From: Acidobacteriaceae bacterium
GTDB taxonomy: Bacteria; Acidobacteriota; Terriglobia; Terriglobales; Acidobacteriaceae
DNA length: 64,000 bases
Direction: 5' to 3'
NCBI GenBank assembly: GCA_003131585.1
Contig: PKVW01000037.1
Span: 2,733-66,732 of the forward strand
Shown here: positions 4,706-63,411 of the stretch, in pieces
How positions within the stretch are numbered: position 1 is the stretch's first letter
Layout of the letters: each line of letters starts with the position of its first letter
Notes under the pieces: generated by a model
Database searches by the model: none
Seen by the model: the letters and a program-made list of their open reading frames with translations, nothing else
Told to the model about the DNA's origin: nothing
Position numbers and translations under genes: made by a program

Positions 4706-4853
4706 CAAACCCTCCTCAAGCCTAATTTTTTCTAGCCTCAAGCTAGGAGCTAGAAGCTAGCAGCCGCTCTTCTAAACCTTGTGCTCCCAGCATCTTTTAG
4801 GTGAGAATCTTCATCATAGGAATGTTGGGCCCATTTCCGGGAGACTCTTCTTA

Positions 4854-6872
4854 ATGCAGATTCGCCTTCGGCGCGACCAGAGCGTTCTGTCGAGTTCCCT
4901 CGTCCTGCTGCTATTGGCTTTCGTCGCGATCCCCTCATCGGCCGCCGAGAAGGCCCACCTGCGCGTTGACGATTACCAGATCGAGGCCGAGCTTACGCCT
5001 CATCTTCATCAGATTTCGGCACGGGTAAAGGTGAAATTCACGGCCCTCCAGGACCTGAGTGTTGCCGTCTTCGAACTGCACAACGGCTTACGCGTCACGA
5101 GGGTTCTCGACGCCAACAACCAGCCACTCTCGGCCGAGCGGGTCACGCAGGATTCGACGGTGCGCGTGCCACTTCCCGCGGGCCTGCCCAAAGACGCTTC
5201 CACCACGCTTATCTTCGAATACGAGGGCCAACTCGAAACCGCCGACGACAGCCCGGTTCCCGGACTCAAGCTCGCCTACATCGGCGACGACACCAGCTAC
5301 CTGCTCTACGCCGGACGGTGGTTCCCGGTGAGCGGCTACGGCCTCAACCGCTTCACCTCGACCATCAGCGTCACCGTTCCGGCTCACATGCTGGTGATCG
5401 GCAGCGGAAAGTCCACGGTCACCGACAATCCGGCCTCGAAAAAACCCAACACCAATGGCCTCCCCACCAAGACATTTACGTTCGTCTATGCAAAAGCGAG
5501 CTTCCCCGGCACCATCGTCGCAGGCATCTTCCAGGAATACAAAAGCGATGAAGCCGGAATGGATCTGCACGTCTTCTTCAAACCCGCCCACCAGTCGCTG
5601 GCTCCCGAGTACACCACCACCGCAGTCCAGGAGTTCACCTACTTCATCACTCTTTACGGCACTCCTCTGTCGCAGAAGCTCAACGTGGTGGAGCTGCCGG
5701 GCGACACGGTTCCCTACGCGTGGGCTCCTGAGATCGCCGGCCTCGCAGGCCCGTCCATCACAGAAAAGACGAACTACCGGCTGCTCGCCAATGCCATCGC
5801 CCATCAATGGTGGGGAGTTTCCGTAAGTCCCGCCTCAAAGGATGATTGGTGGCTCACTGACGGCTTTTCCCGCTATTCCGAAGCCATGTACGTGGAGAAT
5901 GCCGCCGGCGCCGCGGGTCTTGAAGAAGCGGTGAAGGATATGTCGGTGGGCGCTCTGGCCTATGACACCGTTCCGCTTTCCAGCGCCAGCAAACTCGATC
6001 CGTTCTCCACCGAGTTTCAGTCGCTGGTGACCGACAAGGGCGCGATGATCCTGCACATGCTGCGCTGGGTGCTGGGCGAGGACAAATACCTGAAGACCAT
6101 GCGCGAGTTCGCCGAGACATACGCCGGAAAATCGGCCAGCATGGACGATTTCCGCGCCATCGCCGAGAAACATTACGGCGAGCAGCTCACCTGGTTCTTC
6201 TCCCAGTGGCTGGATTCCACCGGCGCGCCCGAGTTCAAGGTTAAGTACACCACCTACCGCCTCGGCAGCAACAAAGGCTTCCGCGTCACCGGCGAGATTT
6301 CCCAGGATCTCGACCTGTTCCGCATGCCCGTGGACCTGCGTATTGACACGGACGGCAAAACGGAAGACAAGAGAATCGAAGTGGTCGGCACCAACTCACC
6401 CTTTACTGTCGAAACCTTCGGACGCCCGCGGCGGATCGCCGTCGATCCCGATCATCGCGTGCTCACCAACTCTTCGGACGTGAAGCTGCGTTCTTCCATT
6501 CTTCGCGGTCAGGCCATGCAGCAGCAGGGCGACCTTTCCGGTGCGCTCGCGGAATTCAATAAGGCGCTCGACCTCAACAAGAACAGCTCCCTCGCCCACT
6601 ACCGCATCGCGGAAATCTTCTTCCTGCAGAGAAACTATCAGTCCTCGGCGAACTCCTACCGCTCGTCCATCAACGGCAACGGGGATCCCCGTTGGACCGA
6701 AGTCTGGAGCCATATCCAACTGGGCAAGATCTTCGACATCACCGGCCAGCGCGAGCGCGCCATCAACGAATACCGGCAAGCCATCCAGACCAACGACGAT
6801 ACCTTCGCCGCTCTCGAAGAAGCCCGCAAGTATCTGCAGAAAGCCTTCGAGCGGCCCAAGAACAAAGAGTAA
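4854..6872 (+). CDS. M1 aminopeptidase-like protein with TPR tail, probably catalytically dead
   Basis: A 672-residue exported protein: a hydrophobic signal sequence in the first 32 residues, an M1-type N-terminal beta domain, a gluzincin-like central domain and C-terminal TPR-like repeats (about residues 545-665). ATG 4854 is chosen because it opens directly onto the signal peptide. In M1 enzymes zinc is bound by HExxH-x18-E. Here the aligned residues are N313-A314-I-A-H317, then 18 residues, then D336, within AIAHQWWG and WLTDGFSRYSE. The first zinc His and the catalytic Glu are therefore missing and the third ligand is Asp. GAMEN is not recognisable. The fold is clear; peptidase activity is unlikely, and a binding or scaffold role in the periplasm is possible. 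Confidence 0.85.
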   Translation: MQIRLRRDQSVLSSSLVLLLLAFVAIPSSAAEKAHLRVDDYQIEAELTPHLHQISARVKVKFTALQDLSVAVFELHNGLRVTRVLDANNQPLSAERVTQDSTVRVPLPAGLPKDASTTLIFEYEGQLETADDSPVPGLKLAYIGDDTSYLLYAGRWFPVSGYGLNRFTSTISVTVPAHMLVIGSGKSTVTDNPASKKPNTNGLPTKTFTFVYAKASFPGTIVAGIFQEYKSDEAGMDLHVFFKPAHQSLAPEYTTTAVQEFTYFITLYGTPLSQKLNVVELPGDTVPYAWAPEIAGLAGPSITEKTNYRLLANAIAHQWWGVSVSPASKDDWWLTDGFSRYSEAMYVENAAGAAGLEEAVKDMSVGALAYDTVPLSSASKLDPFSTEFQSLVTDKGAMILHMLRWVLGEDKYLKTMREFAETYAGKSASMDDFRAIAEKHYGEQLTWFFSQWLDSTGAPEFKVKYTTYRLGSNKGFRVTGEISQDLDLFRMPVDLRIDTDGKTEDKRIEVVGTNSPFTVETFGRPRRIAVDPDHRVLTNSSDVKLRSSILRGQAMQQQGDLSGALAEFNKALDLNKNSSLAHYRIAEIFFLQRNYQSSANSYRSSINGNGDPRWTEVWSHIQLGKIFDITGQRERAINEYRQAIQTNDDTFAALEEARKYLQKAFERPKNKE

Positions 6873-58737: not shown

Positions 58738-59064
58738 TCAGGCGATATCTTCTGGATCATAGACGGCGTTCATCTGATATCCACGGTTCCGGAGATTGGA
58801 TGTTCTCAGCGGGTTAGCAATCAAATTGATCCGATTGGAGCATTCGCGCCCAAGCGCCGCCGTCCGGTGCGTGTTGAGGCTTTCGACCAGGCTGTGAGGC
58901 AGACCATGGTCGCCGGCATCGTCATCGTCATCGTCATCACCGGCATCGGCATGGGCAGCGGCAATATCGGCGGGACCGCCAGGGCAACGACCAACACGGA
59001 CCCTCGGAGCGCGTCGGCCGTTGACGGCGCGCGCGGCCCATGCTGCGTCGGACTGAAAACGCAA
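58738..59064 (-). pseudogene. Possible remnant of a ParB-family protein
   Basis: The frame reads an acidic run (DAGDDDDDDDAGDHG) and then LPHSLVESLNTHRTAALG, which resembles the segment before the C-terminal domain of plasmid ParB proteins (LVEDLTAHRTAAL). The acidic run is coded by a short hexamer repeat on the plus strand, ATCGTC. The rest of the frame is not recognisable. The call is weak. Confidence 0.3.
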
Positions 59065-59185: not shown

Positions 59186-59317
59186 TATACGCAATTATCG
59201 TTTGTTTTAATTGCGTTTAGACGGCAGTAATTGCGTATATAACGCATTTTTGTTGCGTATAACCATTGATAATTGCGTATAGCTGTGTTTTAATTGCGCA
59301 TAGAAATCTATACGCAA
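59186..59317. promoter_or_regulatory. Phased operator/iteron-like array upstream of the Fic gene
   Basis: Seven copies of TTGCGTATA in 132 nt. Five are perfect (59231, 59253, 59273 direct; 59186 and 59309 inverted) and two have one change (59211, 59294). The direct copies start 20, 22, 20 and 21 nt apart, i.e. two helical turns, so they face one side of the DNA. They are AT-rich and end 12 nt before the Fic start codon. This suits cooperative binding of a repressor or replication-type protein. Confidence 0.85.
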
Positions 59318-59329
59318 CGATAGGACACT

Positions 59330-60739
59330 ATGCCTCCTCGCATTCCGGAAGAATCCCTGGCTGCTATCGAGCAAGCGGTCGCGAAGCACCCCGACGGGGC
59401 GAGCTTGAGCGACGTGGCCGAGGCGCTCCCGGAGCGGCTTGCGGATCGCACCCTACAGTACAGGCTCAAATATCTCGTCGACAAGGGGCGCCTGATCACG
59501 GACGGCGAGGGGCGGCGGTGGACGCGATATCGCGTACCGGCGGCGGAGGCGGAGCCTGCGGCTGTTCCCGCAGCAGCGGAGAAGACGGAGGAGGAGGCGG
59601 TGCCGCTGTCTCCGGCCAGCCAGGAAATGCGCGCCTATTTGAGCCAACCACTCAATGCGCGCAAGCCGGTTGGTTACAACCGTGAATTTCTCGACTCGTA
59701 CCGGCCCAACGAGACGCTCTATCTTTCGGAAGAGCAGCGCGCGCATCTCGCGCAGGTCGGCAAACCAAACTTTGACGATCAGGCAGCGGGCACTTATGCA
59801 AAGCAGATTTTGAACCGGCTGCTCATCGATCTGTCGTGGAACTCAAGCCGCCTTGAGGGCAACACCTATTCGCTGCTGGATACGACGCGGCTGATCGAAC
59901 TCGGCGAGGCGGCGGAAGGTCGGGACCGGCTGGAAGCGCAGATGATCGTCAACCACAAGGACGCGATCGAATTCCTGGTCAATGACGCGGAGGCCATCGG
60001 CTTCAACCGTTACACGATCCTCAACCTCCATGGCATTCTGGCGCAGAACCTTCTGCCCGACCCGGGTGCGCCGGGGAGGTTACGCCGTATGGGCGTCGGC
60101 ATCGGAAAGTCCACTTTCCATCCTCTGGAGCTGCCGCAACTGATCGAGGAGTGTTTCAACGAGGTACTGGAAAAAGCCGCGACAATCAAAGATCCGTTCG
60201 AGCAGGCGCTGTTTGCGATGGTGCAGTTGCCCTATCTGCAGCCGTTCGATGACGTGAACAAGCGTGTGTCGCGCCTGTCGGCGAACATTCCGTTCATCAA
60301 TCGCAATCTTTCACCGCTGTCCTTCATCGACGTGCCGCGCGCGATCTACATGGATGCGATCCTGGGCGTTTATGAACTGAATAAGATCGATCTGCTGCGG
60401 GATGTATTCATCTGGGCGTATGAGCGGTCGGCGGCCCGCTATGCCGCCGTTCGCCAGTCGTTGGGCGAGCCCGATCCGTTCCGGTTCAAGCACAAGGCCG
60501 CGTTGCAGCAGATCGTCGGCGAGGTGGTGCGCGGGCGGATGGACAGGAAAGCCGCCGCGGCATATATCACGACCTGGGTGGAGAAGAACGGCATCTCGGA
60601 GGCCGACCGGGAGAAATTCAGGGACATGGCCGAGAGCGAGCTTGTCAGCCTGCACGAAGGAAACTTCGCGCGCTACCAGATCAGGCCCAGTGAATTCGAG
60701 GGGTGGCAACATGTCTGGCGTGAGCGCAAGAAGTCATGA
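59330..60739 (+). CDS. Fic family protein with winged-helix N-terminus and non-canonical active site
   Basis: A 469-residue protein. Residues 5-70 look like a winged helix (LSDVAEALPERLADRTLQYR, VDKGRLITDGEG); a linker rich in Ala/Glu follows; the Fic core is about 150-380. An inhibitory-type motif SSRLEGN is at 172-178. The catalytic loop, HPFx(D/E)GNGRxxR in active enzymes, reads QPFDDVNKRVSR at 304-315: the catalytic His is Gln and both loop glycines are replaced. ATG 59330 has AGGA 6 nt upstream. The winged helix and the seven-site array directly upstream suggest it binds its own promoter. Its stop overlaps a GIY-YIG remnant (ATGA). Confidence 0.88.
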   Translation: MPPRIPEESLAAIEQAVAKHPDGASLSDVAEALPERLADRTLQYRLKYLVDKGRLITDGEGRRWTRYRVPAAEAEPAAVPAAAEKTEEEAVPLSPASQEMRAYLSQPLNARKPVGYNREFLDSYRPNETLYLSEEQRAHLAQVGKPNFDDQAAGTYAKQILNRLLIDLSWNSSRLEGNTYSLLDTTRLIELGEAAEGRDRLEAQMIVNHKDAIEFLVNDAEAIGFNRYTILNLHGILAQNLLPDPGAPGRLRRMGVGIGKSTFHPLELPQLIEECFNEVLEKAATIKDPFEQALFAMVQLPYLQPFDDVNKRVSRLSANIPFINRNLSPLSFIDVPRAIYMDAILGVYELNKIDLLRDVFIWAYERSAARYAAVRQSLGEPDPFRFKHKAALQQIVGEVVRGRMDRKAAAAYITTWVEKNGISEADREKFRDMAESELVSLHEGNFARYQIRPSEFEGWQHVWRERKKS

Positions 60740-60897: not shown

Positions 60898-61278
60898 TCA
60901 GCGCCGCGCTTCGTGGTCTTTGAGCCGGTCCAGAGCCACACGCGCCTTCTGCTTCTTGACCAAGTCGACGATTCCGTCGAACACCTCGGACGTGATCGCC
61001 TGCCCTTTTGCCAGCGGACCAAGCAGGTTCACCAACAGTAGCCGGCACGCCGTGATTTCCACCATCTCCGCACTGGGCCGGAGACCCGTCTTGTCCTGTT
61101 CGAGCTCGCGCAAGATCAGGCGACGGATCAGATCCCCCTGCGTCTGCTTCCGTTTTGCCGCCAGCGCCTCCAGTTCATGCTGCTCCGCCTGGTTCAGCTT
61201 CGTCCCCACGTGATGCACTCGGAACCGCGCCCGCTTGGCCGCCTCCCCTGCTAGGTTCTTCTCATCGAGCAGCGCCAT
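60898..61278 (-). CDS. Ribbon-helix-helix-type mobile-element protein
   Basis: A 126-residue protein. The N-terminal TKLNQAEQHELEALAAKRKQ, TQGDLIRRLILREL is a ribbon-helix-helix-like DNA-binding pattern; the C-terminal half (EITACRLLLVNLLGPLAKGQ, VFDGIVDLVKKQKARVALDR) is helical. A GGAG box precedes the ATG. It resembles accessory proteins of plasmids and conjugative elements (relaxosome or partition type); the exact role is not known. Its 3' end cuts into the GIY-YIG remnant, which marks a rearrangement point. Confidence 0.65.
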   Translation of the reverse strand: MALLDEKNLAGEAAKRARFRVHHVGTKLNQAEQHELEALAAKRKQTQGDLIRRLILRELEQDKTGLRPSAEMVEITACRLLLVNLLGPLAKGQAITSEVFDGIVDLVKKQKARVALDRLKDHEARR

Positions 61279-61481
61279 CGCTCCACCCTCCCGACACCGG
61301 CGTTTACGCGGGTATACACGGGTTTCCCTACGGAACCCCGACCCACGCTATCTATCGGATACATGGATGTTTCCTCGAGAGCACTCGCAGGTTTCCCCAC
61401 AGTTCCCTCCCAGGGGTGGAGTGTCACAATTCTTCCGGTGCGAAGCACCGTTCTTGCTCCGACACGAAATTGAATGCATGA

Positions 61482-61805
61482 TCACGCCTTCACTGCTCGC
61501 ACAGAAGGCGTTGACTCCACCCCAGCTACAAGCTTCTTTGCAGGCTCCTCCGCTCCATCCTTCGCATCCTGATTTGGGCCTTTACGGACGCGTAACGTGG
61601 AAGCGAGCTGCTTGGCTTGTGGCGTCTTCAGAAAGTCCTGAAAGTCGCGGTCTTTCGAGAAGACATAGTTGAGCGCTTTATCCACCACGTCGTCGGCGGG
61701 TGCGTGAACGAAGGCGGCGTACTGATCGACCTGCTCGGCGGTGGATTCATCGAGCCGAACCAAGGCATTGATGTAGTGGCTTAGATTGATCTCAAGTAAT
61801 GGCAT
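61482..61805 (-). CDS. Hypothetical mobile-element protein
   Basis: A 107-residue, mainly helical protein (LSHYINALVRLDESTAEQVD, QYAAFVHAPADDVVDKALNY) ending in a basic/Ala-rich tail. AAGGAG stands before the ATG. It follows the RepB-like gene by 24 nt on the same strand. The central segment has the look of a ribbon-helix-helix-like CopG fold without clear proof. Confidence 0.6.
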   Translation of the reverse strand: MPLLEINLSHYINALVRLDESTAEQVDQYAAFVHAPADDVVDKALNYVFSKDRDFQDFLKTPQAKQLASTLRVRKGPNQDAKDGAEEPAKKLVAGVESTPSVRAVKA

Positions 61806-61829
61806 GTTTTCTCCTTATTTGGTGTTGAA

Positions 61830-62796
61830 TCAAGCAACTTTTTTCCGGGCAATCATCCGCTGTGCCGTCAGCGCAATCTCCCGCGCACGAGCGGAGCAAG
61901 GTGCGGTGGGAATCTCGAAGCGGCGGCGGACCACCAGCATCGTGACCACGCCGTCCATCGGAACGCCTTCGATTAGCCAAAGTCTGGCCGATGCGACATC
62001 CACGGTTCGCTGTGCGTAGTAGAGCGGATTCGGCATATCGGGGCAGCGCGAAGCCAGCTTTCGCGTGAGCTTTGTGGCGTCCTTTCCCCTCGGCAAGTTC
62101 ATGCAGAACCCAGGCCCAATCGTGTTCGGAATTGGTGTGGTTTGCGGAGCGCTTTCGTGGCGTGGTTGAACGGGATGAAACGATGGCATCCGCCGCTAGA
62201 ATATCCAGCCGGAAGTCGTCGGAATTCCAAGTGGAATCGCCTGGGTATTCGACGGTCACGGGCCACTCGGGATCGTACTTGCAATTCAGGAATCCGGGCA
62301 GGCGGAGGACCCGGTTGCAGTCGGTACAGGCGGGATCGCCGCCGAAGGTAATCGCGAGCAGTTTCAGGGCGCTTTCCTGCTGTTCGAGAGTAAAGCTGTC
62401 AACTCTCCAGAGAACCTGATATTTGCCGAGCGATGTCGAGACAATTGCGGTCGGCGTGGGAACGGCATCGGAGGCCCGGAGCGAAGTGAGGTGGGCCTGG
62501 CCGTCGGTATCCAAATCAAGGTACAGATGCCGCACTGCGACGATGCTCTCCTTCGTGCGTTTGCGGCCACCGGGGCGAAGCGTATTGGCAGCCACACAGA
62601 CATTGGCGCCGGTAGAATGCGCAAGCCAGCCGAGGTAACGAGGCGCAAGCGCGGTCTCCAATTGGATAATCCTCTGTAGTGTTCCACTGGGAACTTCACG
62701 CTGTAGAAGCAGCGCAATCGTCTCACCCGGAGCGAAGCAACGGGTGAGGAAATCGGCAGCAGTGCTGGTTCCATTCCGGGTCCTATCCTGTGGCAT
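61830..62796 (-). pseudogene. RepB-like DNA primase of a plasmid/mobile element, frameshifted
   Basis: The first frame (62796 to about 62090) has the primase domain: AVRHLYLDLDTDGQAHL (acidic DxD), PTPTAIVSTSLGKYQVLWRV, RVLRLPGFLNCKYDPEWPVT. The second frame (about 62090 to 61830) completes it: KDATKLTRKLASRCPDMPNP, LYYAQRTVDVASARLWLIEG, VPMDGVVTMLVVRRRFEIPT. They join at a GGGG run near 62091 with one base missing or extra. Together they make about 322 codons. A GAGGTG box precedes the ATG. It may be true decay or a homopolymer sequencing error. Confidence 0.8.
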
Positions 62797-62820
62797 GTTT
62801 CACCTCGAATACCGGCTCAA

Positions 62821-62949
62821 TCAGGAAGCGTTTCGCGTCGCGGTCGTGCCACCCGGAAGCATCCTGATTGCCCCGATCTCGCTGATGCTTTCGTCGAGGA
62901 GCAGAGGCTCAATGGGCCGAAGGAATGGCAGGATCAACTCGAAGCTCAT
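62821..62949 (-). pseudogene. Remnant of a CpaF/VirB11-type secretion ATPase (first ~25 codons)
   Basis: The 42-codon frame starts MSFELILPFLRPIEPLLLDE then SISEI, as in CpaF-type ATPases of conjugation or pilus systems (the family then reads MVNG). Here it continues with unrelated residues and stops. GAGG lies 8 nt before the ATG. A deletion seems to have removed the main body. Confidence 0.5.
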
Positions 62950-63015
62950 AACTGGAACCTCATAGCGATGGAAGCCCAGCGGTCAGCCGGGCTTCCGAGA
63001 GTGAGGAGCTAGGGC

Positions 63016-63411
63016 CTATGCGGCCGTTTCCTCCTGGGGAACTTCATCGTGCTCATGGTTTTTCTCCTGATCTTCCGGGGCGACCTTTTCCGCGCGATCA
63101 AGCTTTAGGATCGAAGCGACCCGAATTTTCCAGACGCGCTGCTTCGAGTCCGTCTTCTTGCTGATGTGTTCCCTGCTGCGCAGTTCGCCTTCCACTTGGA
63201 TATGCGCTCCTTTGGTGAGTGTCTTGGCGAACTCCGAGAGCATGCCGAAAACGACGGAACGGTGCCATTCGGTGTGCGAGATGTACTGATCGTCCTTCTT
63301 GTAGGAGGACTTGGTTGCCAGCGAGAGAGTGGTAAAGCTGCGATTGTCGTTGGTGCGAACTTCTGGGTTGCTGCCGAGAAATCCGATGAGGGTTACTTTG
63401 TTCTGGTACAT
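63016..63411 (-). CDS. ssb: Single-stranded DNA-binding protein
   Basis: A 131-residue OB-fold protein: VTLIGFLGSNPEVRTNDNRS, FTTLSLATKSSYKKDD, TEWHRSVVFGMLSEFAKTLT, KGAHIQVEGELRSREH, then an acidic tail that lacks the usual DDDIPF end of chromosomal SSB. This and the surrounding RepB-like and conjugation remnants point to a plasmid or integrative-element SSB. GGAGA precedes the ATG. Confidence 0.9.
   Translation of the reverse strand: MYQNKVTLIGFLGSNPEVRTNDNRSFTTLSLATKSSYKKDDQYISHTEWHRSVVFGMLSEFAKTLTKGAHIQVEGELRSREHISKKTDSKQRVWKIRVASILKLDRAEKVAPEDQEKNHEHDEVPQEETAA

Follow-up and report, generated by a model that had tools for sequence, protein, structure and literature searches.

Here we describe a dense array of short repeated sites at positions 59186–59317 of a 64,000-nucleotide stretch of DNA from an Acidobacteriaceae bacterium (contig PKVW01000037.1 of assembly GCA_003131585.1; hereafter the window), which lies directly upstream of a gene encoding a Fic-fold protein with its own helix-turn-helix (HTH) domain. 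We propose that the array is a multi-site operator over the Fic promoter, which would be bound by the winged helix of the gene's own product and would keep that protein at a low level; we give this reading a probability of roughly 0.86. The array consists of five exact and two one-mismatch copies of TTGCGTATA. The five direct sites start 20, 22, 20, and 21 bp apart, one inverted site flanks each end, and the final site stops 12 nt short of the Fic ATG. These coordinates agree with those of a preliminary description of the sequence, which had listed seven sites, a slightly generous count given the two mismatches, and had called them helically phased, a fair term for a spacing of about two helical turns. 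Dinucleotide shuffles (2000 of the local region and 30 of the whole window) gave at most 2 sites, compared with the 7 observed in 140 bp, and the paired-site pattern did not recur in this genome and was absent from the 296 other Acidobacteriota genomes searched.

The array is conserved together with the Fic gene. A scan of a genome collection gave 80 loci, which span Acidobacteria, Proteobacteria, Bacteroidetes, Verrucomicrobia, Chlamydiae, and others, and further loci came from plasmid and viral collections. Each locus was scored by its best recurrent 8-mer within 160 nt upstream, with a threshold of 3.6. By this measure, arrays lie upstream of 83% of 99 Fic genes versus 2% of 544 neighbouring upstream regions (Mann–Whitney p 2e-53). 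At the same threshold an array was found at 20 of 21 out-of-sample Acidobacteriota loci, a set in which three starts had been moved upstream by eye, among them that of L188, the locus that fails, and from which the truncated copy L195 was excluded. A Fic relative annotated without the winged helix (L111) scored 1.6 and has no array. The direct spacing in the RTLQ[YFH] class is 18–22 bp in 83 of 87 cases (32 non-redundant loci), and the commonest spacing among relatives is 19–21 bp. The preliminary description had named a lack of conserved spacing as grounds against its proposal, and the spacing proved to be conserved across phyla; when sought near both Fic and rep genes, as it had also suggested, arrays were conserved beside the former and not the latter. 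Arrays accompany Fic genes on chromosomes, plasmids, and viral contigs, and besides Fic no neighbouring gene is common to more than seven loci, which are mostly close relatives. The Fic gene itself is sporadic, with a match in 5 of 61 related genomes (E 1e-3 or better) and in 21 of 396 genomes of the phylum (1e-20), as expected of a mobile cargo gene. At L080, the array upstream of Fic (about 4740–5000) repeats in a longer unit of ~120 bp, which suggests that tandem duplication can enlarge arrays.

The repeat word also tracks the recognition helix of the Fic protein, which in the window comprises codons 39–51 (DRTLQYRLKYLVD). RTLQ[YFH] helices go with TTGCGCATA, TTGCGCCTA, and TTGCGCGAT, and RTLQR helices with TGGCGCGA and TGTCGCGA. 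Where the helix is replaced, the words are TGAGCAGA for SSATVRRHL, AATCAGCT for SLPAVKRML, AATCTTGT for RPTINRDL, TGGCTGAT for PERTLNRWL, and CTTATTCT for YPGTLRYRL, while TCGTTTCA is another unrelated word among such loci. With Fic-domain relatedness removed, word similarity correlates with recognition-helix identity over 55 non-redundant loci (partial r 0.40, 0/1999 permutations), and addition of the out-of-sample loci (69 non-redundant) leaves a partial r of 0.43 (0/1999 permutations). Fic-domain relatedness adds no signal once the helix is controlled (−0.06; −0.02 with the new loci). Gln43 pairs with an NCGCRA-type core, which is present in at least three copies in 56 of 59 Gln43 loci versus 4 of 10 others (Fisher p 1e-4, not corrected for relatedness). 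Covariation of smoothed 6-mer spectra was set aside since the gene-body control was also positive (0.18–0.24); the comparison was therefore redone with the best recurrent 8-mers, for which the gene-body control words gave −0.02. A motif search by expectation maximisation over-called weak sites and served only as a guide. The covariation and the spacing kept across phyla strongly, if indirectly, support recognition of the array by the winged helix of the Fic protein itself, and they lend substance to the earlier suggestion that this domain might bind here.

The layout of the sites points to repression. In the window, TTGATA is followed after 17 nt by TTTAAT; an operator occupies the spacer, another overlaps the end of the −10 element, and an inverted one comes next. 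The consensus of 27 class-Y loci places TTGATa directly before one operator and G-N-TTTAa directly before the next. Sites so placed have the geometry of promoter occlusion, and repression is therefore the best inference: the Fic protein very probably shuts off its own gene. In the proposed mechanism, the winged helix would bind the array sites, and several copies of the protein, bound about two helical turns apart and perhaps cooperatively, would cover the −35 element, the spacer, the −10 element, and the start region, thereby switching transcription off and keeping the Fic protein scarce. In the Fic domain the nucleotide pocket is conserved and glutamine stands in place of the catalytic histidine; its most likely role would be that of a sensor or switch through which the hold on DNA is relaxed. 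The corresponding promoter probably drives a defence operon too in some relatives. More tentatively, and with less than even odds, these proteins may represent a class of one-component regulators in which the altered Fic domain detects a nucleotide or undergoes modification itself, so that the array is released and the protein, along with any linked defence operon, is induced.

The AlphaFold2 model of the window protein contains helices at residues 7–18, 26–32, and 39–51 and strands at 56–58 and 66–68 that form a two-stranded wing, so that HTH and Fic domains reside in one polypeptide, as in the known Fic regulator CccR. The predicted local distance difference test score averages 84.5 and is about 80–91 across most of the winged-helix stretch. 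The protein has the Fic fold: it matches PF02661 at 37 bits (cutoff 24; E 4.9e-9), and the nearest solved folds in a Foldseek search are those of FICD. Its SSRLEGN segment conforms to the class II signature (S/T)xxxE(G/N) N-terminal to the Fic core. The histidine-containing catalytic motif HxFx(D/E)GN(G/K)R is absent; the window reads QPFDDVNKR, and the protein is at best a putative Fic enzyme. Position 304 is glutamine in 119 of 120 aligned proteins, including that of the window, and histidine in none; the one other residue likely stems from L193, whose match was split in the genome search. Residues F306, D308, N310, K311, R312, R315, S172, E176, and G177 are kept in 118–120 of the 120 proteins.

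Table 1. Positions of the operator sites, promoter-like elements, and coding features in the window.
Feature	Position	Strand	Basis and remarks
Inverted operator, upstream end, exact	59186..59194	−	Sequence
Direct operator 1, TTGCGTTTA, one mismatch	59211..59219	+	Sequence
Direct operator 2, exact	59231..59239	+	Sequence
Direct operator 3, exact	59253..59261	+	Sequence
Putative −35, TTGATA	59266..59271	+	Sequence; TTGA conserved here between operators in 27 class-Y loci; unlisted by a simple promoter scan
Direct operator 4, exact, inside the −35/−10 spacer	59273..59281	+	Sequence; class-Y comparison
Putative −10, TTTAAT, with extended −10 TG-N at 59286–59288	59289..59294	+	Sequence; G-N-TTTAA conserved in class-Y loci
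Direct operator 5, TTGCGCATA, one mismatch, across the end of the −10 and the expected start of transcription	59294..59302	+	Sequence; class-Y comparison
Inverted operator, downstream end, exact, between promoter and start codon	59309..59317	−	Sequence
HTH-Fic gene, 469 aa	59330..60739	+	Open reading frame; Pfam match; AlphaFold2 model
Predicted N-terminal winged helix, codons 7–68	59348..59533	+	AlphaFold2 model; covariation
Class II-type inhibitory motif SSRLEGN, codons 172–178	59843..59863	+	S172, E176, and G177 in 120/120 relatives
Fic motif QPFDDVNKRVSR, codons 304–315, Gln for catalytic His	60239..60274	+	Alignment to FICD; family alignment
Ribbon-helix-helix gene	60898–61278	Opposite to Fic	~160 bp downstream of Fic

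The window Fic gene stands alone at the left edge of a small integrated mobile element (window 60898–63411 and L114:1508–2614), which carries a ribbon-helix-helix gene, a RepB-like primase, a single-stranded-DNA-binding protein (SSB), and a tyrosine integrase; the integrase lies beyond the window end and is followed by ordinary chromosomal genes. Five loci from Alphaproteobacteria and Verrucomicrobia (L022, L023, L025, L027, and L060) contain Gabija genes, with GajA beginning at the Fic stop or slightly within it, its start codon overlapping, and GajB coming next. On a Paracoccaceae plasmid, SIR2 and prokaryotic Argonaute (pAgo) genes lie directly downstream of HTH-Fic (L113:7467–10552), and other loci adjoin AbiE, restriction-modification, or SngA (Shango-type) genes. 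These defence neighbours were picked by eye, with no control for background defence-gene density, and enrichment is not claimed; most Fic relatives, that of the window included, stand alone without a defence operon. Three further loci (L031, L036, and L112) show a similar ATGACC junction and no recognisable Gabija genes. Upstream of the window array, a short run of GTCATCGTCATC-type repeats (58900–58960) is aspartate-rich on the other strand. Tandem TTGCGTATA sites also occur in viral contigs that have no Fic gene (L116:2735–2783, L121:4491–4565, L142, L145, and L147); those of L116 and L121 fall within or next to a replication-protein-like gene that contains repeated coding units, and are possibly origin repeats.

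Several other explanations of the array were weighed. The preliminary description had offered plasmid iterons or cooperative operators as its two options, and had noted RepB-like and ParB-like remnants nearby. The repeat density, the iteron-like spacing of 20–22 bp, and the RepB primase (PF16793, E 3.5e-42) and SSB genes within about 4 kb, with the integrase of the element beyond the window, would fit an iteron origin of an integrated plasmid; no ParB-like protein was identified among the open reading frames tested. However, arrays travel with Fic genes on the chromosomes of many phyla, no copy of the array sits beside the rep gene here, changes in the repeat word follow those in the Fic helix, and promoter-like elements are embedded among the sites. 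The nearby RepB-like gene is explained by the integrated mobile element and nothing more. We thus rejected the origin as very improbable, whereas the operator option stands on the covariation and on the spacing shared across phyla. Regulation of fic by another DNA-binding protein, such as the ribbon-helix-helix product encoded just downstream on the opposite strand, is more improbable still, because no such gene is conserved beside the relatives, though nearly all keep arrays, and because the repeat word covaries with the helix of the Fic protein itself.

Two further possibilities share the premise that the winged helix reads the array. The protein could activate its gene, or switch between activation and repression, as several sites (59186–59261) precede the −35 element, the usual position for an activator; against this, the window and most class-Y loci have sites in the spacer, over the −10 end, and just downstream, and the precedent of CccR is a repressor, which makes activation quite improbable. 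A self-contained toxin module, with conditional cooperative autorepression like that of Phd-Doc and a Fic domain that is an active toxin despite its glutamine, accepts the operator and departs from our proposal solely on the role of the Fic domain. In its favour, the inhibitory motif and the phosphate-binding residues show little or no variation among relatives, and PADLOC reports weak similarity to SoFic and PDC-S04. The lysine in the NKR of the window Fic motif, which we take to resemble that of Doc, points the same way. CccR is likewise both autorepressor and toxin (PMC9755527). However, the catalytic histidine is absent from every relative, and mutation of that residue abolishes the toxicity of CccR (PMC9755527); we consider an active toxin unlikely, though less so than activation.

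Some points weigh against the autorepression reading itself. A consensus-threshold promoter scan listed no promoter here, the promoter being argued from conservation alone. Start codons in uncurated relatives were assigned by rule, and the kinship of loci was handled by partial Mantel tests, which fall short of a full phylogenetic model. In viral contigs, 56 of 57 stretches with tandem TTGCGYATA lack a Fic gene, some of them in coding repeats; the word alone is therefore not diagnostic, and its uniqueness among viral contigs was dropped as an argument.

Fic proteins have been studied mainly as enzymes. The present loci reveal a large, multi-phylum Fic subfamily in which the catalytic histidine is uniformly replaced, the pocket and inhibitory helix are kept, and the gene comes with a dense array of operators, which the DNA-binding helix of its product very probably reads. 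They raise the questions of how a Fic domain functions once its histidine is lost and whether Fic proteins, like WYL regulators, govern defence operons, and their many natural pairs of helix and word form a ready-made resource for working out the DNA specificity of winged helices. We found no description of the N-terminal HTH-Fic subfamily, of the histidine-to-glutamine change, or of the arrays in the open-access literature, and one may exist elsewhere.

Among known systems, Phd-Doc shares with the window system a Fic-fold partner, repeated operators, and autoregulation, but it consists of two proteins, Doc has the catalytic histidine, and the DNA-binding part is of an unrelated fold. SoFic and CbFic2 combine a class II inhibitory motif with a winged helix, as the window protein does, but their winged helix is C-terminal and their catalytic histidine is present; a sequence-specific operator is unshown for CbFic2, as is DNA binding for SoFic (PMC10628234). 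DNA binding stimulates the Fic activity of CbFic2 (PMC10628234), and HTH and Fic domains can therefore communicate. BrxR/CapW and CapK-CapS are HTH repressors that precede diverse defence operons and bind promoter DNA there (PMC9122601, PMC9122588, PMC13373217), similar to the six loci in which Fic precedes Gabija or SIR2-pAgo genes. They differ in having a WYL or STAS sensor and one or few palindromic operators in place of a Fic domain and an array, and most Fic relatives stand alone, not heading a defence operon. The closest precedent is CccR of Yersinia pseudotuberculosis, a Fic-HTH protein that binds inverted boxes in its own promoter and acts as an autorepressor (PMC9755527). No close sequence relationship between CccR and the window protein was found in this analysis. 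The HTH domain is C-terminal in CccR but N-terminal in the window protein; CccR uses a pair of 10-bp boxes in inverted orientation, 26 bp apart, whereas this subfamily has arrays of 4–8 sites; and CccR is a secreted effector that retains the canonical motif with its catalytic histidine and active AMPylation. Nevertheless, both unite Fic and HTH in a single polypeptide, and the self-repression proven for CccR is what we infer for the window protein.
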